In this document: piece after piece, positions 45,438 through 64,000 of the stretch
Layout of the letters: each line of letters begins with the position of its first letter
Position numbering within the stretch: the first letter of the stretch is position 1
Assembly: GCF_002234535.1 (NCBI RefSeq)
Contig: NZ_CP022521.1
Span: 4,588,001-4,652,000 of the forward strand
Reading direction: 5' to 3'
DNA from: Actinoalloteichus hoggarensis
GTDB lineage: Bacteria; Actinomycetota; Actinomycetes; Mycobacteriales; Pseudonocardiaceae
DNA length: 64,000 nt
Position numbers and translations under genes: made by a program
Notes under the pieces: model-generated
Seen by the model: the letters and a program-made list of their open reading frames with translations, nothing else
The model's database searches: none
Told to the model about the DNA's origin: nothing

Positions 45438-46201
45438 GAGTCGACTCCCAACGTGTGCAGAAGCTGCTCTGACGCGACGACGCCGAACGCCCGTAGCCAG
45501 ACCGAGGGCTCGCGAAGCTGTTCGGGTGGGCCTGCGATCACCACCGTCTTGTTCAACAGCACCAGTCGATCTGCCATCGCAGCGGCCGACGGCAGATCAT
45601 GAGTGGTCATGAGCACGGCTCGCCCCTCGCCTCGCAGCTCGCCGAACAGGCGGGTCAACAGTTCTTGAGTCGGCACGTCGAGCCCGGTGAACGGCTCGTC
45701 GAGCAGCAGCAGTCTCGGTCGAGACACCAACGCTCTCGCCACGAGGACCCGCTGTCGTTGGCCGCCCGAGAGCTCTCCGATCGGTCGGTCGCCGAGCGCC
45801 GTCAGGTCGACCCGACGCAGGGCCTCGGTGACCACCTCGTGAACGGCGGCTCGACGACGCGACCGCGGGGACCCCTGCGTCACACGATTCGTCAACGCCG
45901 ATCTGACGGCGTTTCGAACCGAGATCGGGAAGTCCCAGGCGAATTCGTGCCGCTGCGGCACGTAGCCGATGGTTCCGCGTGCCTTGGCAGGGGTCCGCCC
46001 CTCGATGGTGATCTGTCCGGCGACCGTCGGGACCAGGGTGAGGACCGCACGAAGCAGGGTCGTCTTGCCCGCGCCGTTAGGGCCGATGAGACCCACGATC
46101 TCGCCGTCGTCCACTCGCAGATCGACGTCGTGAAGAGCCTTGCGGCCGCCGAGTTCGACGCCGAGGCCGTTGACGACCAGTGGCGGTGACGTCTCACTCA
46201 T
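45434..46201 (-). CDS. Anchored-repeat-type metal ABC transporter ATPase
   Basis: 255 residues. Walker A GPNGAGKTT near 38, Q-loop YVPQRHEF, signature LSGGQRQRV near 145, Walker B RLLLLDEPFTGLD, H-loop MTTHDL. ABC ATPase of the ZnuC/MntB class, cytoplasmic, driving the adjacent permease. Overlaps both neighbours by ATGA. The frame runs upstream to 46330, but ATG 46201 is set by the coupling. Confidence 0.92.
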   Translation of the reverse strand: MSETSPPLVVNGLGVELGGRKALHDVDLRVDDGEIVGLIGPNGAGKTTLLRAVLTLVPTVAGQITIEGRTPAKARGTIGYVPQRHEFAWDFPISVRNAVRSALTNRVTQGSPRSRRRAAVHEVVTEALRRVDLTALGDRPIGELSGGQRQRVLVARALVSRPRLLLLDEPFTGLDVPTQELLTRLFGELRGEGRAVLMTTHDLPSAAAMADRLVLLNKTVVIAGPPEQLREPSVWLRAFGVVASEQLLHTLGVDS

Positions 46202-48695: not shown

Positions 48696-48771
48696 CACGT
48701 CTTCCTTCCCCTGGGAAAGCCGCTGGTGGTCGGTGTCGCTCTCACCACGAACAGGGACGAGCACGACCTCG

Positions 48772-50529
48772 TCACCGGGGTTCGTCCGTCGTGGCCGTCG
48801 CGGGTGTGCGGTGTCGCCCCCTGCCGAACCACCACAGGACGCCACCCAGCAGCAGGAGCACGGAGCCGAGCAGGGTCAGCGGCAGCGCTGTCCGCATGCC
48901 CGTCCAGGCGAGCGGCCCCTGGTCGCCGTCCGGACGCGGACCGCCACCTGGAGCGTGGTGCGGGTCGGTCGGGCTCGGCGGGTCGGTCGGACCGGTGGGA
49001 CTCGGCGGGTCGGTCGGGCCGGTCGGACTCGGCGGGCCGGTCGGACCGGTCGGGCTCGGCGGACTGGTCGGGCTCGGCGGACTGGTCGAGCTCGGCGGGT
49101 CGGTCGGGTCCGGCTCGCAGGTCGCCGTAGTGGTGTCGACGGCACCGACGGCGACCGGCAGAACCTCCTTCGCTTCGACCTCGGAACCTGCGGGCAGCGT
49201 GGCGCTCATCCGATATCCCAGGCAGTAGACGCCCTCCGCCGAGAACGCCCAGTTCGCGTGCGCGTGCGTCCCCAATGGGATGTCGAAGGCGTCGGGAAGC
49301 CCGTCCCGGGTGCTGAACGCCGGCTCGGACGGGCCGAACGAGCCGTCCTGGTACAACACGAATTCGCCGGGTCCGTCCACGGAGTCCAAGGTCCAGCGCA
49401 CCGGCCCCGCAAGGGCGTCGCCTGCGATCTCCTCGGTGTTCCAGCCCGGCCAGAGCAGTTCCGGGTCCTGAGTCTGTGGAAGCAGCCACACCGGGCTGCC
49501 CGGTTCGCCGAGGAACTCGTATGCCGGATCAGCGGGCACCTCGCGAGCGCCCTCAGGCTTCAGGTGGAAGAGCACCTCCGACACCGAGCGCCACACCGGG
49601 TCCCCGCTCCGCGTCCCATCCTTGATCTCTGAGACGAGGCTTCCGTCTCGCAGTCGTGCCGCGACGTCGACATGGCCCGTGTCCAACACGAGCCGCTCCG
49701 GCGCGGGCGTGGTGGTGTCGGGAGTCGACGGGGTGGTCGAGTCGGGCGGTGGAGTGGTGGTGTCGGCCGGCGGGGTGGTGGTGGCCGGCGGGGTGGTGGT
49801 GGGAGGTTCCGTGTCCTGCTTCCCGCAAGGAGTCACAGAGTCGGCGTCGACGGCGCCGACGGCGATCGTCAGTCGCCGCCGATCCGTCAGCATTCCGCCC
49901 CCGACGGCCGTCGCGCTGAACTCGAGGTCCAGGCAGTAGACGCCTTCGGCGGAGAACACCCAGTTCGCGTGCGTGTGCGTGCGCTCGGCCATCTCGAAGG
50001 CATCCGGCAGGCCGTCGCGAGTGTTGACGACCGGAGGGTCGGGCGCGAACGGCCCCTCGGTGAACAGCACGAACTCGCCAGGCCCGTCGACGTCATGCGT
50101 CGTCCAGGTGACGCGACCGTCGATGTCGTCTCGGCTGATCTCCTCGGTGTTCCAGCCAGGCCACAGCACTCCCGGCTGTTGCGTCATCGGCAGGAGCCAC
50201 ATCTGGTCGCCGGGCTCACCGAGGAAGTCGTATGCGGGCAGCGACGGAACCGTGGCCTCGCTCGCGGGTACGGCGTGCAGGACGACGTCCTCGAGGTCAC
50301 GCCAGGTCGTCTGCCCGGCGACGGTCCCGTCCTTGATCCGCGCCAGCAGCTCACCGTCCTCGATGACGGCGGCCAGATCGATGTGCCCGTCATCGAGGAC
50401 GACCGGCGTCTCCGGACCGCTGGCGGGATCGGAGCTGGACGCCGCGACCGGTACCACGCTCGCGAGCATGGCCGTGAGCATCACGGCGACCGCGAGCCCG
50501 ACACCACGATACGATCTTCGTACTGTCAT
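48772..50529 (-). CDS. Sortase-anchored surface protein with two anchored-repeat domains
   Basis: 585 residues. Signal peptide (SYRGVGLAVAVMLTAMLASVVPVAAS), two copies of the anchored-repeat domain (about 40-235 and 280-470), each with GHIDLAA/GHVDVAA, WLLPxTQ, LWPGWNTEEI and HTHANWVFSAEGVY/HAHANWAFSAEGVY. A Thr/Pro spacer (PPTTTPPATTTPP) separates them and a long Pro/Ser/Thr wall-spanning segment follows. The C-terminus has LAWTG, a membrane helix and a basic tail: a class E sortase signal. It is probably a wall-bound zinc collector. Its start is 76 bp upstream of the binding-protein gene's neighbour spacing, consistent with one transcript. Confidence 0.88.
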   Translation of the reverse strand: MTVRRSYRGVGLAVAVMLTAMLASVVPVAASSSDPASGPETPVVLDDGHIDLAAVIEDGELLARIKDGTVAGQTTWRDLEDVVLHAVPASEATVPSLPAYDFLGEPGDQMWLLPMTQQPGVLWPGWNTEEISRDDIDGRVTWTTHDVDGPGEFVLFTEGPFAPDPPVVNTRDGLPDAFEMAERTHTHANWVFSAEGVYCLDLEFSATAVGGGMLTDRRRLTIAVGAVDADSVTPCGKQDTEPPTTTPPATTTPPADTTTPPPDSTTPSTPDTTTPAPERLVLDTGHVDVAARLRDGSLVSEIKDGTRSGDPVWRSVSEVLFHLKPEGAREVPADPAYEFLGEPGSPVWLLPQTQDPELLWPGWNTEEIAGDALAGPVRWTLDSVDGPGEFVLYQDGSFGPSEPAFSTRDGLPDAFDIPLGTHAHANWAFSAEGVYCLGYRMSATLPAGSEVEAKEVLPVAVGAVDTTTATCEPDPTDPPSSTSPPSPTSPPSPTGPTGPPSPTGPTDPPSPTGPTDPPSPTDPHHAPGGGPRPDGDQGPLAWTGMRTALPLTLLGSVLLLLGGVLWWFGRGRHRTPATATTDEPR

Positions 50530-50716
50530 CTGGTGCTTCTCTCTCAGGCGAGGGTGTCAGCTGCATCAGGCCGGCGGACCGGCGAGCACCGAGGTGGTCG
50601 AGCGCTCAAGGGCCTGGATCTCTCGCGGAGCCGCGGAGCGCTCAGGCACGAATGTCGTCGCATGAGCCAGGGCGGTCGTGGTTCGGCAGGAACGACGGGC
50701 TCCTCCGACACTTCGG

Positions 50717-52495
50717 TCAGGAGTCCTCGAATCCGGACGATCGCCTCCGGCCGACCAGGCCGTAGAGCAGCGCACCGATCACCAGAAGAGCGACTCCGCT
50801 CACGACCAGGGGGAACGGAGTCGCCCCCGTCGAAGCGAGCGGCTTCCGGCCGCCGTGATCCTCGCCGCCGCCCGGGCTGCCGCCTGCGTCGGGGGAAGGT
50901 GGTGGGTTCGTCAGGTCCGTGGCCGGCGGCTCGTTCCCGCTGGACGGTGGGGTGACGTTCCCCGGCTCGACGTCACCGACCGCGACCGCGAGGACGCCTC
51001 GGTCGGAGACCTGCTCCCCGGACGGCAGCCGCCCGGCGTACTCCAGGGTCAGCTCGTAGACGCCTTCCTCGGAGAACGCCCAGTTGCCATGGGCGTGGGT
51101 CCCCAGCGGCACCGTGAACGAGTCGGGTGTTCCGTCGCCACTGTCGAACAGCACATCGGGGGTGCCGAAGGATCCGTTGACGAAGAGCGCGAACCGGCCC
51201 GGGCCCTTCGCGTCGATCAGGCTGAAGTCGAGCGGCCCGGCCAGCGCGCCGTCGGCGATCTCCTCCGTGTTCCAGCCCGGCCAGAGTATGCCGGACTGTT
51301 GAGCCTGCGGCAGCACCCAGGCGGGATCACCCGGTGCCCCCAGGAAGCCGAAGTCCGCGCTGTCGGGAACCACGATCTGAGCTTCCGGGCGGACATGGAG
51401 GACGACGTCGGTGAACGATCGCCACTCGGTGACCCCGGTGACCGTTCCGTCCTTGACGGAGATGTCCAAGGCGTCGTCGATCAGTCGGGCGGCGATGTCG
51501 ACGTGTCCGTCGGCGAGAACCGAGGAGGAGAGAGTCGTCATCGAGGGCTCGACGTCCTCGTCGTCGCTCGGCTCATGGGACGCCGTGGGAGCAGGCAGCC
51601 GAGATCTCTGTCCGTCGACATCGGCCGGCTCGGCCACCTCGCGGGAAGGCGGCGGAGTGAGGGACGTGTCGGGTTCCGCGCCGGGAGCCGAATCGAGCGA
51701 GTCGATGTCGATTCTGTACGAGGTCTCGTCGACGGCCCTGGCACCGGAGGACAACGTCACCTCGACCTCGAAGTCCAGCCGGTAGCGGCCGGGGGCGGTG
51801 AAGCCCCAGTTCACACCGCCTCGCGAGCCCGGAGTCAGGACGTCCCCGGCGGGCAGGTCCGGCAGGGTGCCGAATAACGGCCGCTGGTCGCCTTCGTCGC
51901 TCTCCGCGAAGGCGATGAACTCACCAGGCCCGTCCGCCTCGGTCAACCGCCAGTGAACCCCGCCGTCGACATCGACGACGTCCACCCCGGTGGTGTCCCA
52001 GCCCAGACGCGGGGCATGCGGAACGAGATCCGCGATCTCCCGCACCGCGGGATCGCTCCCTCCTTCCCTGCTCGGCGTAGTGGGCGCGGGGGCGGACCGT
52101 TCAGGGGCCTCGGCGGGCGACGAGGACGTCGTCGCGGAGACGGAAGGCATGGCGGCGGACTCGGGCGTCGCGGCGGGCATCAGCCAGACATCGGAGCCGA
52201 CCTCGCCGAGGAAGGCCAGATCGGACGGAATCCGAGCATGAGCCCGGTCGGCCTCCAGCGTGATCGGCTCGGGCATCGAGGTCGCCACCGCGCCGTCGAT
52301 GCGCATTCCCACCGCGAGTTCACCTGCGACCAGGTCCACCACGGCGACATCGAGAGCCCGGACTGGCGAGGAGACGGGGCGCGTGTCCTGAGCCTGCGCG
52401 GTCTCCCCGTGCGGCATCAGCGCGACGATGAGTGCCGTCACCGCTGCCCCGCTGATCCCCGCCCGCACCCGCCATCGCTGAGCCGAAACGCTCAC
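50717..52495 (-). CDS. Sortase-anchored surface protein, two anchored-repeat domains (one degenerate)
   Basis: 592 residues from GTG 52495, chosen because GGAAGG lies 9 nt upstream and a clear signal peptide follows (RAGISGAAVTALIVALMPHGETAQAQ). The first repeat domain (about 40-265) is degenerate: a Ser/Ala-rich insert breaks it and it keeps only VNWGFTAPGRYRLDFEVE. The second (about 325-520) is standard: GHVDIAARLIDD, WVLPQAQQSGILWPGWNTEEI, HAHGNWAFSEEGVYELTL. The C-terminus has LASTG, membrane helix and RRR, a class E sortase signal. It is the first gene of the zinc cluster, 158 bp downstream of the Zur box. Confidence 0.86.
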   Translation of the reverse strand: MSVSAQRWRVRAGISGAAVTALIVALMPHGETAQAQDTRPVSSPVRALDVAVVDLVAGELAVGMRIDGAVATSMPEPITLEADRAHARIPSDLAFLGEVGSDVWLMPAATPESAAMPSVSATTSSSPAEAPERSAPAPTTPSREGGSDPAVREIADLVPHAPRLGWDTTGVDVVDVDGGVHWRLTEADGPGEFIAFAESDEGDQRPLFGTLPDLPAGDVLTPGSRGGVNWGFTAPGRYRLDFEVEVTLSSGARAVDETSYRIDIDSLDSAPGAEPDTSLTPPPSREVAEPADVDGQRSRLPAPTASHEPSDDEDVEPSMTTLSSSVLADGHVDIAARLIDDALDISVKDGTVTGVTEWRSFTDVVLHVRPEAQIVVPDSADFGFLGAPGDPAWVLPQAQQSGILWPGWNTEEIADGALAGPLDFSLIDAKGPGRFALFVNGSFGTPDVLFDSGDGTPDSFTVPLGTHAHGNWAFSEEGVYELTLEYAGRLPSGEQVSDRGVLAVAVGDVEPGNVTPPSSGNEPPATDLTNPPPSPDAGGSPGGGEDHGGRKPLASTGATPFPLVVSGVALLVIGALLYGLVGRRRSSGFEDS

Positions 52496-52652
52496 CGCTC
52501 CACGCCTTCCTGTCGACCACATCCGGCACCACATCCGGCACCACAGCGGTGCGCTGCGCCGGTCTGCTGTGGACGGACGATCTCTCGACGGCTCATGACG
52601 GAGGTCCGCCCACCCAGGCCTCGCGCGTCACACCGCAGCGAAGGTAGCAATA

Positions 52653-52669: not shown

Positions 52670-52916
52670 TTCAATTAGTGCGTTCGGGCTAGAGCGTCAG
52701 GAGGCGCGACCGAGACGGCAGGGAGATCACGGGTGGACCAGATCCAGGCGCCTGCGGCGCGGTCTCTCGTCCGCGTGGGTCCGCCGGGCGGGGTGGAGCC
52801 GCTCGGGGCGAACCGACGGCAGGCACGGTGGACCGACACGGAGGAGGTGAGGGCGTGGCCTCGTTCGACGGTCATCGTGATGCCGTGCTCCATGTCGCTC
52901 GGCACGCGGGGAAGGG

Positions 52917-53132
52917 ATGGCCTGCCACGACCTCCGGCGCTCGGACGCGACGGGCCTCGTAGGCGACGGCGTGCCGATCGACATGGTCCGGCGGGCGGAT
53001 CCGGGGCATGAGCGGTCGTCGACGACGCGCGACGCCTACACCCGGGGAGCGGACCACAGCCCTCGACTTCTCGACCCGCTCGGTGATCCCGACGACGAGG
53101 GAACAGCGGGCCTGCTCGCGCCGCTCCGCTGA
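52917..53132 (+). pseudogene. Tyrosine recombinase/integrase, C-terminal remnant
   Basis: The frame 52917-53132 contains HDLRRSDATGLVGDGVPIDMVRR...GHERSSTTRDAYTRG, which matches the C-terminal catalytic block of tyrosine integrases: HxLR, then GHxxxxTT and the active Tyr in AYT. It differs from living copies by one extra residue before GHER (ADPGH for ALGH) and by Arg/Asp replacing usual residues. Nothing upstream encodes the N-terminal or core-binding domains and the frame closes at 52878, so this is a fossil. It lies 88 bp from the tRNA-Val fragment, as an integrase gene would lie next to its attachment site. Confidence 0.6.
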
Positions 53133-53163
53133 CTTCTCGCCGACTGACAGGCATCCGATACGA

Positions 53164-53215
53164 CGAAAGGCCCCGGTGCACGGCTCGCTTCCGAGCCTGT
53201 GACCTGGGCCTTTCG
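53164..53215. terminator. Hairpin terminator downstream of the tRNA fragment
   Basis: Inverted repeat CGAAAGGCCC / GGGCCTTTCG with an inner stem GGCTCG / CGAGCC. It sits 5 bp beyond the 3' end of the tRNA-Val fragment, as the native terminator of a tRNA gene on the minus strand would. In that direction the stem ends in TTTCG. Confidence 0.72.
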
Positions 53216-53219
53216 ACTG

Positions 53220-53261
53220 TGGGCGATACTGGGATCGAACCAGTGACCTCTTCGGTGTGAA
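53220..53261 (-). other. 3' fragment of tRNA-Val(CAC), likely attachment site
   Basis: On the minus strand the 42 nt read TTCACACCGAAGAGGTCACT, then the T-arm GGTTCGATCCC and the acceptor strand to CCCA. This is the 3' half of a tRNA-Val with anticodon CAC, identical to what an intact gene would have from the anticodon loop on. Upstream of the loop the match stops abruptly: the 5' half is absent. Such a loop-to-3'-end duplicate is the classic footprint of site-specific integration into a tRNA gene. The intact tRNA is not in the window. Confidence 0.8.
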
Positions 53262-53771
53262 TGATGCTGCGCAATGGCCGCTGCCTGCGTGAATACGATC
53301 GCGGCAGGCAGAGCGGTCTCGTGAGGAGCCGTCTGGGCGTGATTCAGCGTCGTCGAACGCGCCCGGCAGCTCCCATTCCGCTCCCAGCGGCTGTGCCCGG
53401 CAGCTCGTCGAAGCCAGCCGAACCGACGGACGCCCAGTAGCCACGACGAGGTCCGGCGGTCGCCGGCGGATGCCGCCCCGGCCCGATGGGGCGACGGCCG
53501 ACCTCCTACGGGCTCGGATGACCGAGCGAGTCGACAGGTGTGGCCGGTGCATCACGAGTTGGCTTCGATCGGCATCCGCCTAGCAGCCATCGAGCCGCGC
53601 GGCCGGGATCGGAACCGCGGTGGCAGCCCGCCGTGCCGTCGATCCAGGGCAGCGTCGGCGCGCCGCGAGCGGCGGCCTCCCGCGTCGTGTCCCCGACTCG
53701 TTCGGCGGCGGATCGTCGAGTTCCACGGCTCAACGTAGCGAGCCGTCTTCTCGGATCGTCAACGAGCGTCG
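53262..53771. other. Region between the tRNA fragment and CRISPR array 1
   Basis: About 510 bp without a supportable gene. This would be the first DNA inside the putative inserted element. No repeats or RNA genes recognised. Confidence 0.4.
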
Positions 53772-54335
53772 GCGACAGACTTGTGTGGGAGCGATGACGA
53801 CGCAGCGCCCCTCCTGTGCCCGCCGCCTCGAGGTTCAGGCATGACTCCTCGTAGGAGCGATGAAGACTCGCCAGCCACTGCGCCGCGAAGTTCGCCGTGT
53901 TCCGGTTGGAACTCCTCGTAGGAGCGATGAAGACTGGTGTCCAGTTAATGGGCGGGATGCGGCGGTTCGTGTTGGAACTCCTCGTAGGAGCGATGAAGAC
54001 CGTCATGCCGCCTCATCGGCACCGCCGGGCCGGACGTGTTGGAACTCCTCGTAGGAGCGATGAAGACCGTCCCCCGCCGGCCGACCGGCGGACGGGTTCG
54101 AATGTTGGAACTCCTCGTAGGAGCGATGAAGACACGGGGCCGATTCGCATACAGCACCTCGCCCGGATCGGGTTGGAACTCCTCGTAGGAGCGATGAAGA
54201 CGGGAGCAGCGTCCCCCCGCCGCGTCGGGGCGGGTCGTGTTGGAACTCCTCGTAGGAGCGATGAAGACTTCGTCCCCCCGCCGAATTCCGCGATAACCCC
54301 CGTGCGTTGGAACTCCTCGTAGGAGCGATGAAGAC
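53772..54335 (-). CRISPR. CRISPR array 1: about 9 repeats, 8 spacers
   Basis: 30-nt repeats start at 53905, 53971, 54038, 54104, 54172, 54239 and 54306, identical to each other. A copy with a changed end lies at 53838 and a badly decayed one at about 53772. Spacers are 36-38 nt. Decay at the left and a conserved flank at the right show that the leader is on the right and the array is transcribed on the minus strand. In that sense the repeat begins GTCTTCATCG, has the stem CTCCT-ACG-AGGAG and ends GTTCCAAC, the likely crRNA 5' handle. Repeat form suits type III. Confidence 0.96.
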
Positions 54336-54460
54336 CCGAGAGTAAAGTCGCAGGTCACAGCACCTTCGGGGAGGCGCCGGAGCAGCAGTTCTGCAGCGTA
54401 CCGGAGGTGTGACATCAACCCCCGGGGGTCTGCTGAAATCGGCGGCTCCCGGGACGCCGG
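54336..54460 (-). promoter_or_regulatory. Leader of CRISPR array 1
   Basis: The sequence next to the last perfect repeat shares several blocks with the same side of array 2: CCGAGAGTAAAG(T/C)CGCAGGT directly at the repeat, then TGACAT and CCGGGGGTCTGCTGAAA about 75-100 nt further. Shared blocks at a fixed distance from the repeats identify this as the leader, with transcription leftward. Confidence 0.8.
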
Positions 54461-54605
54461 GTGGCTCGCAATCGCGAGGGCCGCCGGGTGGGTTGGATTC
54501 GGTGTGGGAAGCCGACGGCGGCGGGCACGAGGAGAGGCCGACGAGCCCGATGGAGACGAACCGGCCGGGGGTCGCCGTCTGCTCATCGAGGTCGCGTGGT
54601 GGTGG

Positions 54606-55694
54606 TCAAGGACGACTGAGGGCGGGGAAGGGCTCGTAGGCGCTGCCGCCCTGGGTGCGGGTGAAGGCGGTCCAGCGGTCGTGTTCCGGCGCGGCCAGGC
54701 GCGCACCGAGTGCCACGGCGATGGCGACGGGGCCGTTGAGGAAGATCGCATGCCGTCCGTTCCTGGCTCCTTCAGGCAGCGGCGCCGCGCGCCAGGCACG
54801 ACAGGTCTGCTCCACCACCCCGCTGAAGGTCTCGGTGTCCTCGTTCAAGCGGTCCGTCGACGACCTGCGGAGGCGGAGGACGTAGCCGATGCCGTACTGG
54901 CGACATGCCGCCTGTACCTGATCGAAGAACTGATCGCCGAATCCCTGCACGTCCACGGCGAGCGCGACCATGGTGGGGTCGCCGTCGTCCACCGCCGTCA
55001 ACCGGTCGACGATCAGCGGCTCGGCACCGAGGGCGCCGACGCGAAGGGAGACCGCCGGGAAGTACGCCGGTGACCCATTGCCCTGTCGCATCGCATGCAC
55101 CATGACCTCGCGGGCGTGGGTATGCCCTAATCGCGCGCCGAACCAGAACCCGACGTGCAACCGCATCGTCGGGATCAGGTTCACTCGGGCGGCGTCCGGC
55201 GCGAGGCGGCCTGCCATCGTCAACCCCGACCTCGTCTCCTCCGCCAGCGCGTCGACCAGCCGCGGATCCAAGACATCGTCTTGGGACAGCTCGATACCGG
55301 CCCTCAACGTCACCGCGCAGGTGCTTTGACTGAACGCCGTCGCCTGCTCCTCCAACTGCCGGGCTTGTGACAGCTCACGACGAGAGTCGGCCGCCGTCAC
55401 CACGATGCCGACTCGTACCCGACGGCGTCCTCGACCCCGCAGGCCGAGTCCCAGCGCGACGAGTCCGAGCCCCACGACGAAGGCCAGGACGAACCACCAT
55501 CGCCCGGCGGGCTCGTCCGCCACGAACGACTTCGCCGCCTCCACTCCGAACCCGCCCGCCACCGTCGCGCCCACGGCCACCGCCGCCGTGCCGTCGGTGA
55601 CGAGCGCCCACCCGGCGGATGAGCGCGCCGTGGTGCCACCGGAGCCGACCACGTCCAGCCGGGGCGGACCCGACACTGTTGAACCTGTCACCAC
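54606..55694 (-). CDS. Two-transmembrane SAVED-domain protein (putative cyclic-nucleotide-gated CRISPR effector)
   Basis: 362 residues, GTG start. Two hydrophobic segments, about 28-51 and 67-86 (WWFVLAFVVGLGLVALGLGL), are followed by a basic stop (RGRGRRR) and a cytoplasmic SAVED domain (about 95-362). SAVED marks: MRLHVGFWFGARLGHTHAREV, VALAVDVQGFGDQFFDQVQAAC, and near the end RHAIFLNGPVAIAVALGARL and YEPFPAL. SAVED binds cyclic oligonucleotides; 2TM-SAVED proteins are known CBASS effectors (Cap14). Here there is no CD-NTase; the gene lies between two CRISPR arrays and opposite a cas operon whose Cas10 has an intact GGDD. It is therefore a likely type III effector that damages the membrane when cyclic oligoadenylate is made. 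Domain call firm, role inferred. Confidence 0.82.
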   Translation of the reverse strand: MVTGSTVSGPPRLDVVGSGGTTARSSAGWALVTDGTAAVAVGATVAGGFGVEAAKSFVADEPAGRWWFVLAFVVGLGLVALGLGLRGRGRRRVRVGIVVTAADSRRELSQARQLEEQATAFSQSTCAVTLRAGIELSQDDVLDPRLVDALAEETRSGLTMAGRLAPDAARVNLIPTMRLHVGFWFGARLGHTHAREVMVHAMRQGNGSPAYFPAVSLRVGALGAEPLIVDRLTAVDDGDPTMVALAVDVQGFGDQFFDQVQAACRQYGIGYVLRLRRSSTDRLNEDTETFSGVVEQTCRAWRAAPLPEGARNGRHAIFLNGPVAIAVALGARLAAPEHDRWTAFTRTQGGSAYEPFPALSRP

Positions 55695-55944
55695 AACCGT
55701 CCGTTCAGGAGATGCACGCCCGATGCGGCGTGATCGAATCGGCAGAACTCCGCCACTCTAATTCCGGCAACCCGCGCCCGTGGCATCCGTTCTCGATCCT
55801 GTGCGCCTTCGTGACATGACCACGCTGGGCGGTCAAGGGTTCCGCGGGCCGCAGCTCTCGTGGACGCCCTGGTTCCGGCGAATCAGGCTCCCGCGTCAAG
55901 CGATAAGGACACGATGAATCAGCGAAGTAGAGGCTGCTTGCCGC

Positions 55945-56454
55945 GGTGGATCTTTTCACAGAGTCGATGAAGACCGAGCATCGAGTTGATCGACGCGCTC
56001 CCTCCGGTGCCGACGGCCCTGCGGTGTTGGAACCCTTCACAGGGCGACGAAGACGTCGGCAGCGTCGGGCACGTCATCGCCTGGCTGCCGCTGTTGGAAC
56101 CCCTCGTAGGAACGATGAGGACGACCGACATCGTCGCAACGATCGACACCGTGCTCGCGTTGGCACCCCTCCTAGGGGCGATGAGGACACCTGAGGTTCG
56201 CCCGAGCGTCTCGTCCCAGTGCAGTTGGAACCCCTCCTAGGGGCGATGAGGACGGGCCGCGATGGGCCGGACCTCCGCCGAGCAGGCGTGTTGGAACCCC
56301 TCCTAGGGGCGATGAGGACCGGAGGCGGAGATGACCACAGCGTCCGCGCTGAACACGTTGGAACCCCTCCTAGGGGCGATGAGGACCAGGCTTGCGGATC
56401 GTGATCCCGGTCGGCACCCAACGCGTTGGAACCCCTCCTAGGGGCGATGAGGAC
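55945..56454 (-). CRISPR. CRISPR array 2: 8 repeats, 7 spacers
   Basis: Repeats at 55945, 56026, 56093, 56159, 56224, 56290, 56357 and 56425. The last four are identical; 56159 has one change, 56093 several, 56026 is 29 nt and 55945 is degenerate. Spacers are 35-38 nt except 51 nt between the two oldest. Decay at the left again puts the leader at the right. Read on the minus strand the repeat starts GTCCTCATCG, has stem CCCCT-AGG-AGGGG and ends GTTCCAAC. It differs from array 1 mainly by paired changes in the stem. Confidence 0.96.
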
Positions 56455-56580
56455 CCGAGAGTAAAGCCGCAGGTAGACGGGCCTGCGAGTGGGTGTTTTC
56501 GTAGCTGTTGTGCAGAGACCCCGCAGTCTGACATGGCGCGCCGGGGGTCTGCTGAAACTGCGGAGTGGCGAACGGGAGCG
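56455..56580 (-). promoter_or_regulatory. Leader of CRISPR array 2
   Basis: Begins CCGAGAGTAAAGCCGCAGGT next to the newest repeat and contains TGACAT and CCGGGGGTCTGCTGAAA at the same spacing as the leader of array 1. Transcription is leftward, through array 2 toward the SAVED gene. Confidence 0.8.
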
Positions 56581-57433
56581 GCACCACCGACCACCTCCAG
56601 TCTGCGTGCCTCGCCGAGCCCGCATCGTGCACGCGCCCTGCCGGGGCTCGGCTGCCGTGGCTCATCGTAGGCAGGCGCCCTGCTCGGAGATCCGCGAGCC
56701 CTGTCGACGCTCTGTATCACCCGGCACGGTGTCTTCGTCACCGGGTTCGATCGAGGTGGCTGGGAAATCCGCTGTGTCGAGCGGGTCGGCACGGTCGGGC
56801 GCGCTTCTCCCCGATGCGGAAGCAGAGCCTTCACTGCCTGGGTGCCGTTGACGGCTGCCTCGTCAGTGGCGAATCGCTCGGCCGTCTTCCGTGGAGATTC
56901 GAACAGCGGACCGCGCGCGACCATGTCCGACCCGCGAACCCCATTGTTGCGTCGGCAATGATATCTGAGAATCCCGGCATTCGATGCGTAGCCGATTTTC
57001 GGTAGAGTCCCCCGGTCGCGTCAAAGGCAGGGGGATGTCGATGCGATTTCATGGAGGGTTCGCTCGCGGGGGCGGCGCGCCGGCGCCGGTGTCGAGCGAG
57101 ATGCCGGGTCCGATCCGGCCGGTAGCCGAGGGCAGGAGCGATCCCGTGGCCTGTCGTGTGACTGGTCGTCTCGGCATGCGGTCGTTCGCTCGCGTTCGGG
57201 TGGCTTCATACCGGCCGCGAAGGCCGCTCGCGAATGCCGATCGCACCGTCATCGGTGATCGCCCCGATGGGGCCTGCGGATGTCGTGCGGTCCGTCGGGA
57301 TCACGGGCGAGGAAGCCTGTCACGGCGGCCCGGCGTGTGCCGCGCTGTGGGGCGCCCGCGTGATCCGGCGTCCGCCTTGTCGGCCTGACCTGTCCGTCCG
57401 CACCTGTCGTTGTCTCGAGGGGGAGCCGGCACG
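56581..57433. other. Divergent region upstream of the cas operon
   Basis: About 850 bp between leader 2 and the first cas gene, with no recognised gene. A relatively AT-rich segment at 56940-57010 contains a plausible promoter, TTCGAT (56977-56982)-17 nt-TAGAGT. A frame from ATG 57035 to 57388 follows an AGGCAGGGGG tract, but its codon composition is weaker than that of the cas genes and no motif is visible. GGGGGAG at 57419-57425 is the ribosome binding site for the next gene. Confidence 0.45.
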
Positions 57434-59566
57434 ATGCCCGCTGTCATCAATCCGTACACCTTCGTCCCGTTTCCGGAGGTCGATCCGCACGCCTTCCGTC
57501 GTCCCCCGGCCGGACATACCCGGCTCGGACCCGCCGAGGACGGCCGCGAGAGGTACTCGGGGCGGGTCGAGGTGGTGTGGACGAATCGCAGTCCGCTGCA
57601 TCTGGCGACCGGTGAGACCGACGACGCCGGTGTCGCCGTCTTCCCGCGTCGGCGCTCTTCGGCGGACGGGGATCTCCGGCCGTTCCTGCCTGGTTCGACG
57701 GTGGCCGGGGTGGTGCGCAACCTGCATGAGAACCTCGTCGGCGGCTGTCTGCGGATCTTCGACGCCGACTTCACGCCGGACTATCGCGACGAGGTCGTCG
57801 ACGCCCGCTCGACCGATGCCGGTCGACAACGGGGGTGGACGTTGGCGCGGGTTCTCCAGGTGCGTGACGGGCGGCCGAGTGTGCTGACCATCTGCCGCCA
57901 GGTCGTCTGGATCGAGTCGGGGGCGTTGGCCGAGGCGCTGGGTGATCCGGAGCTGATCGTCACGGGCGAACAGATCGTCGTGGACGGGGTGTCGACGAAC
58001 GCGCGGAAGCAGACCGTCAAGAATCCCGACCAGGTCAAGCCCGGTCGGGGCTGGGTGCTGCTGGTCAGCGATGCCGCCGCCCGTCCGGAGACGGGGAAGT
58101 ACTACGTCGCGGCCGGGCGTCTCGGCGACCAGGAGTACACGCACGCGGAAGAGGACGATCCTGCTGCCTGGCAGCGGTTCACGCGGCTGGTGGACAGCGG
58201 TGAGGACAGGCGCCTCGCCCGTCGTGCGGCGCGGGAGTCCGATGCGGCGGAGGGCACGGGGGACGACGGCGCGGCCGAGCGGGTCGCGGTGCGGTTCGGG
58301 CCGGCGGGCCGGGAGCGGTTGATCGGGTATCGACACCGCGCGCGACGGACCGCTTATCCGGGTCAGGTGCTGTGGGTGCGGTGCGAGGACGGTGAGATCG
58401 TCGAGTTCGCCCAGTCCGCCGTCTGGCGACATGTCGGCTCCGGGGCGGCGGGCGAGCGGGTTCCTCCGGAGCTGCTGGCCTGCTCCGACGCGCGGCAGCT
58501 GTGCCCCACCTGTCGTGTCTTCGGGTCCGTCGACGCAGAGGGATCGCCCACCGGAGAGGGGGACGGGGAGGATCTTCGTGCTCGGCAGCGGGCGTATCGG
58601 GGACATCTCCGGTTCGCCGACGGGATTCTCGTCAACGAGGTCACGGAGACGATTCGACGGTTTCCGATGTTGAGCACGCCGCGCCCCGGCGCCGGACAGT
58701 CCTATCTGGAACCGCAGGGCAGGGGCAGGTCCGCCCCGCTGGGCCGGCCTGCGCTGCGGGAGTGGGGTTCCGGCCTGGACGGCACGGGCCGCGGTCCTCG
58801 GCGGTTACGCGGCAGGAAGCACTACTGGTTGACCAGGGACTACGCTCGGCGCCCGTTCTTCCGGCTGTCCACCGAGACCATGCCGCCGCGCGCCACGGGA
58901 GCGTTCGGGCCGGAGTCGAGTCTGGGGCGTTGTCTGGAGCCGGGCGGGCGGTTTCGCGTCGCCGTCTCCTACGAGAACCTCGATCTGGTCGAGCTCGGCG
59001 GCCTGCTCGCCGCGCTCGATCCCGCTCTCGTGCTGCGAGCCGCGGACGAGACCGGGTTGATCGGCTTCGCGGTGGGCCACGCGCGTCCGCTGGGACTGGG
59101 CAGCTGTACCAGTGAGATCACCGCGCTCACCGTGGACACCGCGCGCAGCAGGTACGGCGGTGCGTCGCAGCCGACGGTGACGATCGCGGACGCGGTGTCG
59201 GCGTTCACCGCCGCCGTCGACCCCGGTGTGCACCGCGTGTGGGCGATGCTCACCTCCGCGCTGACGTTGGACCACGTCGATCCGAGCCACGTCTACTACC
59301 CCACCCCGAACGGCGTGCCCGCCGGACCGCTGGAGCCTGCGGACCTGGAGCCCGACTTCACGTTCTGGCAGGAGTCGCGGGGTGTGACGACGTCGACCGA
59401 GGAGTTGCCGTTGATCGTGCTGCCGGAGATCACCGACCCGCCCGAGGCCCAGTTCCTTCCCCGCCCACAGCGCAGAGAGCTGCCGAAGCCTAAGAAGAAC
59501 CAGGGCAGGTCCGCGGGCGGCGGGCAGCGTCGGGGCAAGGGCAAGTCGGGAAGGAATCGTCGCTGA
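57434..59566 (+). CDS. TIGR03986-like RAMP protein of a type III effector complex
   Basis: 710 residues from ATG 57434 (GGGGGAG at 8 nt). It has two RAMP-type ferredoxin folds. The first has the glycine-rich loop FLPGSTVAGVVRNLHENL near 85. The second, after a long insertion, has a CPTCRVFGS motif (Cys357, Cys360), as in Csm3/Cmr4-like Cas7 proteins, and GRKHYWL, a mark of the TIGR03986 family. The C-terminal 30 residues are a basic tail (PKPKKNQGRS...), likely RNA-binding. It should form part of the crRNA-bound backbone. First gene of the cas operon; its stop overlaps the cas10 start (TGATG). Confidence 0.85.
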   Translation: MPAVINPYTFVPFPEVDPHAFRRPPAGHTRLGPAEDGRERYSGRVEVVWTNRSPLHLATGETDDAGVAVFPRRRSSADGDLRPFLPGSTVAGVVRNLHENLVGGCLRIFDADFTPDYRDEVVDARSTDAGRQRGWTLARVLQVRDGRPSVLTICRQVVWIESGALAEALGDPELIVTGEQIVVDGVSTNARKQTVKNPDQVKPGRGWVLLVSDAAARPETGKYYVAAGRLGDQEYTHAEEDDPAAWQRFTRLVDSGEDRRLARRAARESDAAEGTGDDGAAERVAVRFGPAGRERLIGYRHRARRTAYPGQVLWVRCEDGEIVEFAQSAVWRHVGSGAAGERVPPELLACSDARQLCPTCRVFGSVDAEGSPTGEGDGEDLRARQRAYRGHLRFADGILVNEVTETIRRFPMLSTPRPGAGQSYLEPQGRGRSAPLGRPALREWGSGLDGTGRGPRRLRGRKHYWLTRDYARRPFFRLSTETMPPRATGAFGPESSLGRCLEPGGRFRVAVSYENLDLVELGGLLAALDPALVLRAADETGLIGFAVGHARPLGLGSCTSEITALTVDTARSRYGGASQPTVTIADAVSAFTAAVDPGVHRVWAMLTSALTLDHVDPSHVYYPTPNGVPAGPLEPADLEPDFTFWQESRGVTTSTEELPLIVLPEITDPPEAQFLPRPQRRELPKPKKNQGRSAGGGQRRGKGKSGRNRR

Positions 59567-60969
59567 TGCCGACCTACCTGGACATCGCCGCCGTGCGCAT
59601 CCAACGCTATCTGGCCCGCACCCCCACGCTACGGGGACGGCGTGCCGCCAGCGCCGCGCTGGTGGAGATGCGTTCGGTGGCCGCTGACGCGCTCGTGGAC
59701 AGCGCCAGCGCGCGGCGCAACGAGGAGGCCGGGGAGATCGACGGCGTCATCAGCCTCACCGTCGACCCGCCCGGAAAGGTCGACGAGGTGGCCTCCGTCG
59801 TGCTGCGCGCGCTGCGTTCACGCCTGCCGGGGGCCGAGTTCCACGCGATCTCGGGCACCGGAGAGGACTACGTCACCGCCTACGCGCGGGAGATGCGCCC
59901 CGGCATCGTCGCCGGCCGCGGCCGGGCCGACCTGCCGACGGCGGCGGAGTTCCCCCTGGCCGCGCCGTGCCGGGTCTGCGGTGTCGACCCTGCCGTCGAC
60001 TCGGTCGACCTCGGTGACGACGGCGTCCGCGAGGTCTGTGCCGACTGCGCGGAACGGCACACCCGCCAGGCGTTGGCGGAGAGTCGCACCGCCGAACGCC
60101 GCCTGGCCCGGCGGCTGAACCTCGACGCGGCGCCACGCGGTTTCGAGGACCTCGCGGCGATGGGCGCCCGGCAGACCCGTATCGCCGTGATCCACGCCGA
60201 CGGCAACCGGGTCGGCAGGTTCTTCCTCGATCTCGCGGCGCTGCCCGCGGATCGGCTGCCCGAGCGGCAGACGGTGGTCCGCAGGCTGTCGGAGGCCACC
60301 TTCGACGCGCTGGCCGCGGCGACGATGGCGATACGAGACGCCGGGGCCCGGACCCTGCCGGTGATTCCGCATGTGCTCGGCGGTGACGACGTCCTGGCCA
60401 GTGTCCCCGCCGACCGTGCGTGGCGCTTCGTTCGGGTGCTGCTCCGCGAGTTCGGCGAGCGCATGAACCGGCTGGTGAAGAGCCTCGGGCTCGCCGGAGA
60501 GATCACCGCGCCGACCATGACGGCCGCGGTGCTCTTCGCACGGCACGACGAGTCGTTCGCGACGATCGTCGCGTCGGCCGAGGACGCGCTCACGCGCGGC
60601 AAACGAGCCGGTGCCGGCCGCGCGGCCTGGGTCTGCTTCCACGACCTCACCACCGAGGGCCGCCGCGACGAGGGCCGAGTCGTGTCGCTGGCCGCCCTCC
60701 AGACCGGACAGACCCACCTGGACGCCCTCGCGCGAGCCCCTCGCTCACTTCGGGAGAACCTCGCCGCCGCGCTGGCCGACGGCGGAGCAGGCGCCGCCCG
60801 CGCCCACAGCCACCGGCTCGGCGTCACCGCGAGCCTGCCGTTCCTCCCGCCGGCGCCGCCCGACCCCGCACCCGACGGCGAGCCGCCCGCCGACGCCGAG
60901 CCGACCGGTCCCGACGACCGGCGGGTAGACCTCGACACCGCGCTGCGCATCGCGAGGTGGTGGCGATGA
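59566..60969 (+). CDS. cas10: Cas10, short form without HD domain, GGDD intact
   Basis: 467 residues, about half the usual Cas10 length. It begins directly with the first palm-like domain (YLDIAAVRIQRYLARTPTLRGRRAASAAL); no HD nuclease motif precedes it. A four-Cys zinc site follows (C135-x2-C138, C158-x2-C161). The catalytic palm has HADGNRVG with Asp212 and the GGDD motif at 272-275 (VLGGDDVLAS), both intact. This predicts loss of the single-strand DNase activity but retention of cyclic oligoadenylate synthesis on target RNA binding. The C-terminal domain is helical, with a Pro-rich insertion near 430. Coupled to both neighbours by overlaps. Confidence 0.9.
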   Translation: MPTYLDIAAVRIQRYLARTPTLRGRRAASAALVEMRSVAADALVDSASARRNEEAGEIDGVISLTVDPPGKVDEVASVVLRALRSRLPGAEFHAISGTGEDYVTAYAREMRPGIVAGRGRADLPTAAEFPLAAPCRVCGVDPAVDSVDLGDDGVREVCADCAERHTRQALAESRTAERRLARRLNLDAAPRGFEDLAAMGARQTRIAVIHADGNRVGRFFLDLAALPADRLPERQTVVRRLSEATFDALAAATMAIRDAGARTLPVIPHVLGGDDVLASVPADRAWRFVRVLLREFGERMNRLVKSLGLAGEITAPTMTAAVLFARHDESFATIVASAEDALTRGKRAGAGRAAWVCFHDLTTEGRRDEGRVVSLAALQTGQTHLDALARAPRSLRENLAAALADGGAGAARAHSHRLGVTASLPFLPPAPPDPAPDGEPPADAEPTGPDDRRVDLDTALRIARWWR

Positions 60970-61535
60970 ACATCGAGATCACCTTCCACGGCCCCTTCCG
61001 GGTCGGCACCGGCACCCCACACCAGGGAGTGGCCGAGACCGTCGATCGCGACAGACTCCTGCCCGAGACCTCGCTCAAGGGCGTCATGCGCGCCGCGGCC
61101 GCCCTGCTGCTGCCGGGCCGCCCGGATCTTCTCGACGAGGTCTTCGGCGCCGCGGGCGGGGGTCGCAAGGGCTGCCCGTGGCACTGGGGCCCCGTCGACT
61201 TCGCCGATGATCCCGTGGTCGTCCAGCGCGCCCGCATCGCCGTGGATCCCGTCACCGGGACGGCCCGCGACGGCGTGTTCTTCCTGGCCGACGAGGTCTG
61301 GTCCGCCTCGGCCTCCTTCACCCTGCGCCCGCTACGACACCTGACGGCCGACACCGCCCGACGTCACCGCGTCGTGCTCGCCTGCGCCGCCGCCGGGGTG
61401 CACAACCTGGGCGGGGATCGGAGGCGGGGCCTGGGCTGGGTCACCCTCCGACCGAGCGCCCCAGCCGTCGACGACGCCCTGCTCACGGAGTTCGAGGCGC
61501 TGCGTGCCGCACGAGTTGAAGGACGCCATGCTTGA
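60966..61535 (+). CDS. Small RAMP-superfamily protein (Cas7-like)
   Basis: 189 residues; ATG overlaps the cas10 stop (ATGA). Single RAMP fold: MNIEITFHGPFRVGTGTPHQG as first strand and loop, LLPETSLKGVMRAAAALLLPG as helix 1 with the S-L-K-G motif, RARIAVDPVTGTARDGVFFLADEVW as the central strand typical of Csm3/Cmr6-like proteins, and a terminal Gly/Arg-rich loop GGDRRRGLGWV. It would be one backbone subunit on the crRNA. It does not show the catalytic Asp context of Csm3, so it may be non-cleaving. Confidence 0.82.
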   Translation: MNIEITFHGPFRVGTGTPHQGVAETVDRDRLLPETSLKGVMRAAAALLLPGRPDLLDEVFGAAGGGRKGCPWHWGPVDFADDPVVVQRARIAVDPVTGTARDGVFFLADEVWSASASFTLRPLRHLTADTARRHRVVLACAAAGVHNLGGDRRRGLGWVTLRPSAPAVDDALLTEFEALRAARVEGRHA

Positions 61536-62808
61536 GATCACCCTCACCGCACGACAACCGCTGGCCCTCGGGGTCGGCGAGAGCGCCGGGAACCTGATCC
61601 GCACGCACCGGCACGTTCCGGGGTCGGTCCTGCGGGGAGCCCTGGCCTCGGCGTGGATCACCGAACACGGCGAACCCGCGACGGATCGGGGCCTACGCCG
61701 TCGATTCCTGGACACCTTCGAACGCCGAGTGCGGTTCTCCCCGCTGTTCGCCGCCGGGTCCTCGGTGGTCCCGCTGTCCGTCCTGCGGTGCGCCTACCGG
61801 GGCGAGCCCGCCTGCACACAGGTGTTCGTCGACGCCGCCTCCGGCGACGAACGCACCGACTGCCCGCACTGCGCGGGACCGCTGCAACGCGGGAGGGGGC
61901 AGGTCGAGTTCCCCGAGGACGCCGAACCGATCCAGCACACCACCCGGGTGGCACTGACCGAACAGGGCACCGCCCGCGACGGCGCGCTGTTCACCCGCGA
62001 GGCACTCCACCACCGCGACGCCTCCGGCGCGCCACGCCGCTTCCACGGCCTCGTGCTCGGCGACGACCCGTGGCTGGCCGAGTCCCGCCCGCTGCTGCTC
62101 GGCGGGGGACGCAGCACCTCGGGGCTGGTCGACTACCAGGCCGTCCCGGGGGTCGCGGTCCCGCCCGCCGCGACCGGCAGGCGGCTGATCCTGCGGCTGG
62201 TCTCCCCCGGAGTCCTCGTCGACGCCGCCGGCCGCCCCGACGACCAGCCCGACCTGGCCCTGCTGCGCGAGCTGCTGCGCGTCGACGTCCGAATCGAACA
62301 GCACTGGGTCCGACGTGAACGGCTGACCGGCTGGCACTCGGCCGTCGACCTGCCCAAGTCCGAGGAGCACGCCGTGACCGCGGGCTCCACCTACGTCCTC
62401 GACCTCGCCGACGACCCCGACCCGGCGGACCTGTCGCGGCTGACCGAACACGGAATCGGGCTGCGACGAGCCGAAGGACTCGGCTGGATCGAACTCGGCG
62501 CCTGGCGCCCGCCCGAGGCACCCGCGAACACCGACGACACCTCCACCAGCGGCATGGCCCCCGAATTCGCCGCGCGACTCGAGAAGAGCGGCCACGGACG
62601 GCCCGTCCTCGCGATGCTGCGCGAATACCACTCCGCGCTCCGACGCGGGGCCGCCCCGCCCGCACGGCAGATCCTCGACCGCCCCGTCTTCGCCCCGCTG
62701 AAGAACGACCTGCGCACGATGTTGATCGGTCTGCTCGCCACGAGACCATCGTGGATCCCGCAGCTCGCCGAGGCGCTGGAGATCCGGCTGAAGGGAGGAC
62801 ATCGATGA
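61528..62808 (+). CDS. csx10: Csx10-like RAMP protein (type III-D)
   Basis: 426 residues from ATG 61528 (AAGGA at 4 nt, overlapping the previous stop by 8 nt); ATG 61504 is in frame but lies deep in the previous gene. LALGVGESAGNLIRTHRHVPGSVLRGALA carries the RAMP glycine loop (Val30-Pro-Gly-Ser33), then LFAAGSSVVPLS, a CPHC-containing insertion, RVALTEQGTARDGALFTREAL, and GGGRSTSGLVDY as the terminal glycine-rich loop. This order is that of Csx10, the Cas5-like subunit that binds the crRNA handle in III-D complexes. The Csx10 call rests on overall pattern, not an alignment. Confidence 0.78.
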   Translation: MLEITLTARQPLALGVGESAGNLIRTHRHVPGSVLRGALASAWITEHGEPATDRGLRRRFLDTFERRVRFSPLFAAGSSVVPLSVLRCAYRGEPACTQVFVDAASGDERTDCPHCAGPLQRGRGQVEFPEDAEPIQHTTRVALTEQGTARDGALFTREALHHRDASGAPRRFHGLVLGDDPWLAESRPLLLGGGRSTSGLVDYQAVPGVAVPPAATGRRLILRLVSPGVLVDAAGRPDDQPDLALLRELLRVDVRIEQHWVRRERLTGWHSAVDLPKSEEHAVTAGSTYVLDLADDPDPADLSRLTEHGIGLRRAEGLGWIELGAWRPPEAPANTDDTSTSGMAPEFAARLEKSGHGRPVLAMLREYHSALRRGAAPPARQILDRPVFAPLKNDLRTMLIGLLATRPSWIPQLAEALEIRLKGGHR

Positions 62809-64000
62809 CCGTCCGCCTGCTCGTCTCGGTCACCCTGCGCCTGACCGCCCCCGGCGGAGTCGCCGCGCCCGAACTCCTCGCGCAGGACGACGACGGCCTG
62901 CTGTTCGGCACCGCCCTGCCGCTGGCCCGCACCCCCAGGGGAATGCCGTGGATTCCCGCCACCTCGGTGGCAGGCTCCCTGCGCGCCCACCTCGCCGACC
63001 GGGCCGAGGCGTTCCTCGGCGGCGAGCCCGGCGACGAGGTGTTCCCCTCGACCCTCTGGCTGCTGGGCACCCGCGTCGACCACCAGGGCATCACCGAACG
63101 GACCCGCACCGCGATCGATCGATGGCGCGGCGCCGCCGCGGCAGGCCCGCTGCGGCGCTCCGAGCACCTGCCCGCCGGAACCCGGATCACGGTGTACCTC
63201 CGCCTGGACGACGTCACCCTCGCCGACGAACTCCTCGGCGCGCTACGCACCTGGCGGCCGAGGATCGGCGGCGGCCGCACCATCGGTCACGGAACCTGCG
63301 TCCTGGAGCAGATCCGCGGCGGCCGCCTCGACCTCGACACGCCCGAGGGCCGCCGGATCTGGCTCACCCGAGGCGGCCCCGGCCTGTTCGACGACGACCT
63401 CACCGACCACGTCGAGACACCACCCGTGCCGAACACCCACCCACCCGTGCTGCACCTCTCCTGGTCCATCGTGGACGGACTTCACATCGGCAACGGCGAG
63501 ATCGACCACCGGGGCAACGGCCAGAACGACGTCGCCCTGATCCTGCGCACCCACGACGGGACGCCGGAGATCCCCGGCAGCGCCTGGAAGGGCCTGCTGC
63601 GCTCACGCTGCGAGTTCATCCTCCGCTCGCTGGGCGTGGTCTGCTGCTCCCCCGCCGTCGACCTCGACGCCACGACACCCGGCTGCGGTGACTGTCTGAT
63701 CTGCCGGGCCTTCGGCACCGCCTCCTCCGCGGGCCCGAGCCGACGGGGACGACTCGACTTCCGCAGCTCCCCCGTCGCCGACGCCGAGATCGTCGAGCAA
63801 CGTCACGTCGCCCTCGACCGCGTCTTCGGCGGCGCCCGCGCCGGCGCGCTCTACAGCAGGCAGGTCGTCCGCTCCGGCACCCTCGACCTCGTCGTCGACG
63901 CCCTCGACACCCTGCCGCCCGGTGCCACCGCCCTGGTCACCCTGGCCTGCCTCGACATCCACGACGGCCTGCTCGGCGTCGGAGCCGCCACGACCCGGGG
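62805..64000 (+). CDS. Double-RAMP Csm3-like protein, 3' end beyond window
   Basis: At least 398 residues; ATG overlaps the csx10 stop (ATGA). The N-terminal RAMP (about 1-215) has WIPATSVAGSLRAHLADR and GGGRTIGHGTCVLE. A second RAMP begins near 220: LHIGNGEIDHRGNGQND with Asp234 in the position of the Csm3 target-cleaving Asp, EIPGSAWKGLLRSRCEFIL (IPGS at 256-259), CGDCLICRAFG as zinc-type Cys motif, and RHVALDRVFGGARAGALYSRQVV. This is a fusion of two Cas7-like units, one apparently able to cut target RNA. The end of the second unit is beyond the window. Confidence 0.84.
   Translation, partial: MTVRLLVSVTLRLTAPGGVAAPELLAQDDDGLLFGTALPLARTPRGMPWIPATSVAGSLRAHLADRAEAFLGGEPGDEVFPSTLWLLGTRVDHQGITERTRTAIDRWRGAAAAGPLRRSEHLPAGTRITVYLRLDDVTLADELLGALRTWRPRIGGGRTIGHGTCVLEQIRGGRLDLDTPEGRRIWLTRGGPGLFDDDLTDHVETPPVPNTHPPVLHLSWSIVDGLHIGNGEIDHRGNGQNDVALILRTHDGTPEIPGSAWKGLLRSRCEFILRSLGVVCCSPAVDLDATTPGCGDCLICRAFGTASSAGPSRRGRLDFRSSPVADAEIVEQRHVALDRVFGGARAGALYSRQVVRSGTLDLVVDALDTLPPGATALVTLACLDIHDGLLGVGAATTR

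Follow-up and report, generated by a model that had tools for sequence, protein, structure and literature searches.

Beside the CRISPR locus of Actinoalloteichus hoggarensis, on the side that faces a zinc operon, the 3' half of a tRNA-Val(CAC) gene lies next to the end of a dead integrase, and the question that this locus raises is what entered the chromosome here, how many times, and whether the type III CRISPR genes arrived with it. The first-pass annotation of the window (the whole stretch of DNA analysed, 64,000 nucleotides, genome bases 4588001-4652000) took the arrangement for an integration scar left by one integrative element that had brought in the DNA to the right together with the CRISPR locus, and placed an intact tRNA-Val(CAC) at the other end, past position 64000 on the same strand. 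Our analysis resolves the scar into a map of successive insertions in which the integrases are assigned to units, and it yields predictions, open to test, of the way in which a type III CRISPR locus reached its place beside a valine tRNA. Features are collected in Table 1, and positions beyond 64000 are given as window-equivalents.

Three identical copies of a tRNA-Val(CAC) core

Window positions 53220-53261 on the minus strand match tRNA-Val(CAC) exactly from the first base of the anticodon loop (7 nt, TTCACAC) to the 3' end, so that the match does stop in the anticodon loop as had been claimed. A search of the whole single-contig genome (6,606,717 bases) placed this 42-mer at three sites on one strand with 0 mismatches each, and it returned no match with up to 3 mismatches elsewhere in the genome and 0 for a reversed-sequence control. 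The match exceeds the 42-mer by 3 bases in all copies, leaving 45 bp common to the three, and copy 2 and the intact gene have 47 bp in common. ARAGORN and Rfam scans made no call at 53220, as expected for only half a gene. The sole intact copy containing the core that was found in the genome lies at genome 4667169-4667240 (minus strand, 66.0 bits; window-equivalent 79169-79240), where the CAC anticodon was read directly from the sequence, and ARAGORN names tRNA-Val(CAC) at the homologous site of Actinoalloteichus spitiensis. This is the intact gene that the first-pass annotation had anticipated, 25.9 kb rightward of the scar and on the same minus strand, and the CRISPR locus is therefore bracketed by tRNA-Val repeats. 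However, the reading of the bracketed stretch as a single element is rejected by the second identical truncated copy, which splits it into two units, A and B, and makes the locus a stack. Taken as a whole, the arrangement has the features by which Islander-type islands are recognised, namely an intact tRNA and displaced 3' fragments in one orientation with island DNA in between (genome 4641220, 4657062 and 4667169).

Table 1. Features of the tRNA-Val(CAC) locus; positions are those of the window or its rightward equivalents unless marked as genome positions.
Feature	Position	Strand	Remarks
Unit C integrase fossil	52753..53132	+	final ~120 codons remain; 5' part missing, reading frame broken, stop codon at 53132
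Hairpin between integrase stop and tRNA core	53164..53215		strong; -40.8 kcal/mol, z = -4.68 vs 200 shuffles
tRNA-Val(CAC) truncated copy 1 (att core)	53220..53261; genome 4641220	-	exact 42-mer; here unit A (to the right) adjoins unit C (to the left)
Unit A	53262-69061 (in window: 53262..64000)		15.8 kb; bounded by identical cores, copies 1 and 2
CRISPR array 1	53838..54335		8 repeats, first degenerate
SAVED-domain protein	54606..55694	-	PADLOC CorA-like 8.8e-110, SAVED_TM 2.4e-56; NCBIfam SAVED 2.1e-20
CRISPR array 2	55945..56454		8 repeats, left ones degenerate
TIGR03986 RAMP	57410-59566	+	type III cas gene
Cas10	59566-60969	+	Cas10 palm PF22335 37.6 bits, cut-off 27
Cas7/RAMP	60966-61535	+	type III cas gene
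Csx10/Cas5-like	61504-62808	+	TIGR02674 3.8e-19, under cut-off; PADLOC Cas5_IIId 2.2e-21
Cas7/RAMP (second)	62751-64127, past window end	+	type III cas gene
Cas11	64124-64543, outside window		type III cas gene; follows the cas genes
Cas6	64540-65277, outside window		type III cas gene; follows Cas11
CRISPR array 3	65540-65891, outside window		
Scrambled type-II integrase remnant of unit A	68688-69061	-	42% to int2, E = 8e-10
tRNA-Val(CAC) truncated copy 2	69062-69103; genome 4657062-4657103; outside window	same as copy 1	exact 42-mer
Unit B	69104-79168		10.1 kb; between copy 2 and intact tRNA; both cores present

The integrase fossil and the stump of a third unit

By its profile score alone the integrase beside copy 1 is faint, since the open reading frame at 52917-53132 (match span 52917-53129) reaches E = 0.0005 and 20.3 bits against PF00589, under the cut-off of 27.1 bits, and this is what could be said for a chance tRNA match next to an unrelated integrase fragment. 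The odds of such a coincidence are negligible in view of the exact 42-mers with their control of 0 and of a continuous 86.5% DNA identity over integrase, hairpin and core: window 52753-53261 aligns over 517 columns with genome 4666699-4667210, which comprises the end of an intact 411-aa integrase gene in unit B (genome 4665846-4667081), its hairpin and the tRNA 3' half, and in a global alignment of a slightly longer stretch 467 of 562 positions are identical. In both places the integrase and tRNA genes are convergent and 87 bp separate the integrase stop from the tRNA 3' end, in keeping with the claim of a C-terminal remnant within 90 bp, and this equal spacing combined with the alignment makes the fossil and the unit B integrase relatives. 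About the first 288 residues are missing from the fossil, tblastn pieces covering residues 289-403 of the unit B integrase (integrase B) with frame breaks. The truncated tRNA piece and the dead integrase are thus confirmed as a real scar of mobile DNA integration.

The fossil does not belong to the CRISPR unit: the scar separates it from the CRISPR DNA, and its type is that of unit B, from whose integrase it has diverged. We read it as the probable integrase end of a third, mostly lost unit C whose body would have extended leftward on the zinc-operon side. It serves as a warning that the integrase nearest to a truncated tRNA can be a neighbour's, from the other side. A left core of unit C was sought in 20000-53150, where the best local matches scored 11 (plus) and 12 (minus) and ten block shuffles gave maxima of 10-13; as no further truncated copy was found left of the fossil, unit C has a single end, an integrase remnant without a tRNA fragment of its own. 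While the stump itself stands in the sequence, the body and left core would have been lost. Left of the stump comes the DNA upstream of the zinc ABC operon, in which we take one stretch to be Zur-box-like. The operon (window 43118-52534) includes choice-of-anchor M (anchored repeat) surface proteins and has a patchy distribution; at E <= 1e-30 its substrate-binding protein is found in 4 of 60 relatives (own genome counted), and the surface protein in neither of two same-genus genomes. There is no step in base composition at the scar, with G+C of 0.69 against 0.68 in the adjoining 2-kb bins, and composition does not set the CRISPR unit apart.

It could be argued that unit C entered a secondary site upstream of the zinc operon rather than a spare tRNA copy, the DNA to the right including CRISPR being older chromosome, which would account for the missing left core and for the lack of any continuation of the tRNA to the right of copy 1. 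We regard this as improbable, because two identical cores delimit the CRISPR unit exactly and an integrase remnant marks its far end, and because another genome (G018) shows a like layout, in which two truncated copies, each accompanied by a type-II integrase or what is left of one, share a strand with the intact tRNA.

Unit B resembles an AICE

Unit B codes for a GntR/UTRA regulator, an FtsK-like protein (weak match), a RepSA initiator, an HTH_17 protein and the integrase. RepSA scores far above its cut-off (PF20199, 2.3e-147, 492 bits, cut-off 34), and none of 14 control genomes has a match. The FtsK-like protein reaches 21.5 bits with PF01580 (cut-off 24) and 1.3e-4 with NCBIfam TraB, far below the cut-off of that model, and a protein 51% identical to it lies near the integrase relative in G019. 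A suspected broken nucleotide-binding motif in this protein was dismissed, the same K-N-S being present in two relatives (G019 and G004). With a site-specific integrase, att repeats at both ends and an AICE-type replication initiator, unit B has several marks of an AICE, and by gene content it would be a complete-looking AICE-like element of the pSAM2 type. It shares with pSAM2-type AICEs the RepSA family (PF20199), an integrase ending beside a tRNA, HTH_17 and a GntR-family regulator, but its target is tRNA-Val, whereas that of pSAM2 is tRNA-Pro. A plasmid search with integrase B gave 50 records, all at less than 60% identity.

Unit A holds the CRISPR locus

The CRISPR locus is inside the stack by position, and its genes suggest a type III-D-like system. 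Among ten unit A proteins given a general, untargeted profile scan, none was named as Cas1 or Cas2 (optional in type III-D) and none was a recognised AICE backbone gene. Three arrays adjoin the cas genes; their repeats are related but different, and a sequence after the last repeat, CCGAGAGTAAAGYCGCAGGT, is common to all three. Owing to this shared sequence on the right and to the degenerate repeats at the left ends, the right ends look like leaders. Besides the spacers themselves, spacer matches within the 120-kb neighbourhood were short and chance-like. A counterpart of the SAVED-domain protein, 56% identical, occupies the same place beside a type III locus in G025. At the far end, beside copy 2, a short plus-strand piece that we read by eye overlaps the scrambled type-II remnant.

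A probable tandem stack and its place in the genus

Combining these observations, we consider it very probable that a tandem stack of integrative elements has accreted at the 3' end of one tRNA-Val(CAC) gene. The three identical cores follow one strand order, one of them inside the intact tRNA, and each is flanked on the same side by integrase sequence, intact in unit B, scrambled in unit A and a remnant in unit C.

The same-genus comparison, which consists of two genomes (G001 and G002), gives additional support. Each has one tRNA core, and in each the tRNA is directly followed by the flank of copy 2, the identity, counting the core, being 94.8% over 116 bp for G001 and 75% over 272 bp for G002; G001 retains a longer type-II integrase fossil at this flank, and integrase B finds no match at E <= 1e-40 in either genome. 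Unit B is therefore absent from both genomes, which present the empty site that had been asked of related strains, and the type-II remnant is old and shared. Moreover, copy 2 resembles a former neighbour of the tRNA from which the insertion of unit B has separated it. This is difficult to reconcile with a single composite island that runs from 53220 to the tRNA, entered once and already carried copy 2 as an internal repeat; such an island would fit the bracketing of the whole stretch by identical cores, but also has to accommodate two integrase types, and we give it very little credence.

Collinearity with G002 ends at window position 28918 and is regained at 68850. In between, G002 has 4.9 kb of different DNA where our genome has 40 kb, so that the interval of 28.9-68.9 kb, with both the zinc operon and the CRISPR locus, is missing from this site in G002. 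The Cas7-like protein was matched in 7 of 60 genomes (own counted), G001 and G002 not being among them. Accordingly, neither of the two findings that would have spoken against an insertion was made: the intact tRNA is not a distant gene with unbroken synteny here, and the CRISPR locus is not present throughout the genus. That the CRISPR DNA came in on an integrative element is a proposal of which a part stands, in that the locus is bracketed by tRNA-Val repeats, and a part does not, in that the fossil is not the integrase of that unit. We infer that the CRISPR genes are cargo of unit A's type-II element, and leave it at this strength because the type-II integrase remnant is present in three same-genus genomes, our own included, and the CRISPR locus is not. 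For the same reason, with the remnant in G001 and G002 and the Cas7 protein in neither, the CRISPR genes may have come later than the type-II element.

A general association of this CRISPR locus with tRNA-Val elements was considered and is not supported. In the five other genomes with long Cas7 matches (a sixth, G019, has a partial match) the 40-75 kb that we inspected contained no truncated tRNA-Val copy. In G025 the locus is conserved in gene order, with seven proteins at 56-75% identity; it lies 16-28 kb from a tRNA-Val pair, and a type-II integrase remnant is found in the interval, but the locus is not bordered by a truncated tRNA. Around the loci of G031, G014, G007 and G006, the 40 kb inspected include no tRNA-Val core. 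In G025 a 92-base tRNA-Val(CAC) named by ARAGORN at C1:2640676-2640767 falls within a long open frame and is probably spurious.

The hairpin follows the integrase type

The first-pass annotation had taken the terminator beside the tRNA piece for the tRNA's own. At each of the three sites in the genome a strong hairpin separates the integrase from the core (z = -4.68, -6.52 and -5.28), and its kind differs: copy 2, G001 and G002 carry a type-II hairpin, and hairpins like that of the scar are found with type-B integrases at other sites. We compared the 85 bases beside the core at 18 sites picked for an assignable integrase type, from which one site of uncertain type (the truncated copy in G021) and four near-duplicates were removed, leaving 13 (7 type B, 6 type II). 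The mean flank alignment score was 29.9 within integrase types and 13.2 between them, a difference reached by the true labelling alone of 1716, with the flank being partly coding since the integrase frame comes within about 20 bp of the tRNA at some type-II sites (17 bp at genome 4670030). At the sites compared the flank, hairpin included, thus goes with the integrase type and not with the host or the tRNA, and because of this the hairpin is probably not the native terminator of the tRNA, a reading that we judge unlikely. It appears instead to belong to the integrase module, and may end tRNA transcription. Shared descent of the integrases explains the flank pattern as well as function does. 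If the relation holds at more sites, the hairpin could help to type dead units elsewhere.

Targets and recurrence

Among the genomes searched integrase B has seven matches besides its own. Near-full-length relatives at 54-60% identity are found at tRNA-Val 3' ends in four genomes, at tRNA-Val(CAC) in G004 and at tRNA-Val(GAC) in G012, G019 and G041; a broken relative in G004 sits beside tRNA-Pro(CGG), and so the family is not tied to tRNA-Val. These five have an assigned tRNA, and the two remaining matches, in G044 and G015, are at 38% identity. In A. spitiensis, whose genome comes from another collection, an integrase 83% identical to integrase B lies at a tRNA-Val(CAC) 3' end. Type-II integrases were observed at tRNA-Val(GAC) in our genome, Actinokineospora pegani and G015, and at tRNA-Val(CAC) in G021.

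The tRNA-Val core is present in 49 of the 60 genomes searched, and truncated copies, ten in all, in at least seven of these 49 (own counted). This is a lower bound, as the count was drawn from nine genomes with two or more CAC-type matches, outside which fall G050 and G054 (whose second match is on the opposite strand with 3 mismatches) and most single-match genomes. G008 and G017 have two whole tRNA genes rather than truncated copies. With a profile built from 13 integrases, the expected side gave a match within 1.5 kb for 5 of the 10 truncated copies and the opposite side for 1 of 10, hits that are partly by construction because the profile includes integrases of some of the loci tested; 5 of the 10 have no integrase match beside them.

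Order of insertion and possible mobility

By analogy with known tRNA islands, each element would be laid out as core, cargo, integrase, hairpin and core, and its tyrosine integrase would recombine the tRNA 3' half of the element (attP) with the chromosomal one (attB) at the anticodon loop, restoring the tRNA 3' half and displacing a spare copy as attR. Leftward from the intact tRNA one would then meet unit B, unit A, the stump of unit C and the zinc operon. In the simplest order the type-II element would have come first, followed by C into the spare copy left by A, and then B into the tRNA gene. A perfect copy 1 fits this later insertion of C, as its integrase-side core would come fresh from the attP of C.

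The same final map would presumably result if unit C had come first and the type-II element later beside the tRNA, pushing C to the left. We hold this reversed order to be possible and rather less favoured, since the type-II remnant is common to three species and far decayed, and the C fossil still has 86.5% DNA identity to an intact integrase. The type-II-first order is preferred for the same two reasons, presence of the remnant in all three same-genus genomes and nearness of the C fossil to an intact integrase, and this dating is rough.

More speculatively, the stack may still be mobile. The left side of copy 1 has the same integrase-type hairpin module as unit B, and integrase B might act on its own ends and on copy 1, with A and B leaving as one 26-kb circle that includes the type III CRISPR (cis-mobilisation), and with the hairpin both marking the integrase type like a barcode and providing the regenerated tRNA with a terminator from the element. 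We think this whole scheme unlikely as it stands; were cis-mobilisation true, an AICE would move a type III CRISPR system along.

Relation to known tandem elements

Tandem accretion at tRNA genes is a known process, AICEs included, and this locus is a further, unusually legible and well-preserved example; among the titles listed by a narrow literature search none was about this very locus, and we do not claim that no account of it is in print. AICE accretion at one tRNA with decayed members and with members of differing integrases is described in PMC9513070 and PMC3218068. At a Streptomyces tRNA-Arg, one to three AICEs with identical direct repeats are reported, with a conserved remnant of an old element in all strains, and AICE03 lies in a tRNA-Val gene with 46-nt repeats (PMC9513070). 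Our locus is similar in its identical direct repeats and old remnant but differs in host genus and site, and the word CRISPR is absent from the main text of that paper. Similar to our units, Fean5518 and Fean5534 of Frankia are described as tandem AICEs at one tRNA, there tRNA-Lys, with an att-tra-rep-int-att layout (PMC3218068); that pair excises singly and together as a circle of about 31.8 kb, whereas here two of three integrases are broken. The Islander account (PMC4383910) gives a regenerated tRNA and a displaced 3' fragment, with anticodon-centred att sites common among 2083 islands, and calls tandems by an integrase and a fragment for each member (125 of two or more, 4 of three or more). 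The regenerated tRNA and displaced fragment are the same here, but the fragment that belonged to the third member is gone. Integrative elements with CRISPR parts are on record, namely a Campylobacter ICE with Cas9 (PMC8743540) and Frankia Fcci3350 (PMC3218068); our case is alike in having CRISPR-Cas parts in an element, but with a type III system and a SAVED protein in a decayed unit.

Elsewhere in this genome, an intact 494-aa type-II integrase frame (genome 4670030-4671514, window-equivalent 82030-83514) ends 17 bp from tRNA-Val(GAC), for which reason the DNA to its right is probably a second integrative element; the two genes of this 2.8-kb tRNA-Val pair are thus both occupied. Two more RepSA genes, at genome 312675-314138 and 1424617-1426080, are each about 2 kb or less from a tRNA gene (310914-310987 and 1427636-1427708, respectively) and likely mark two further AICEs at other tRNAs.
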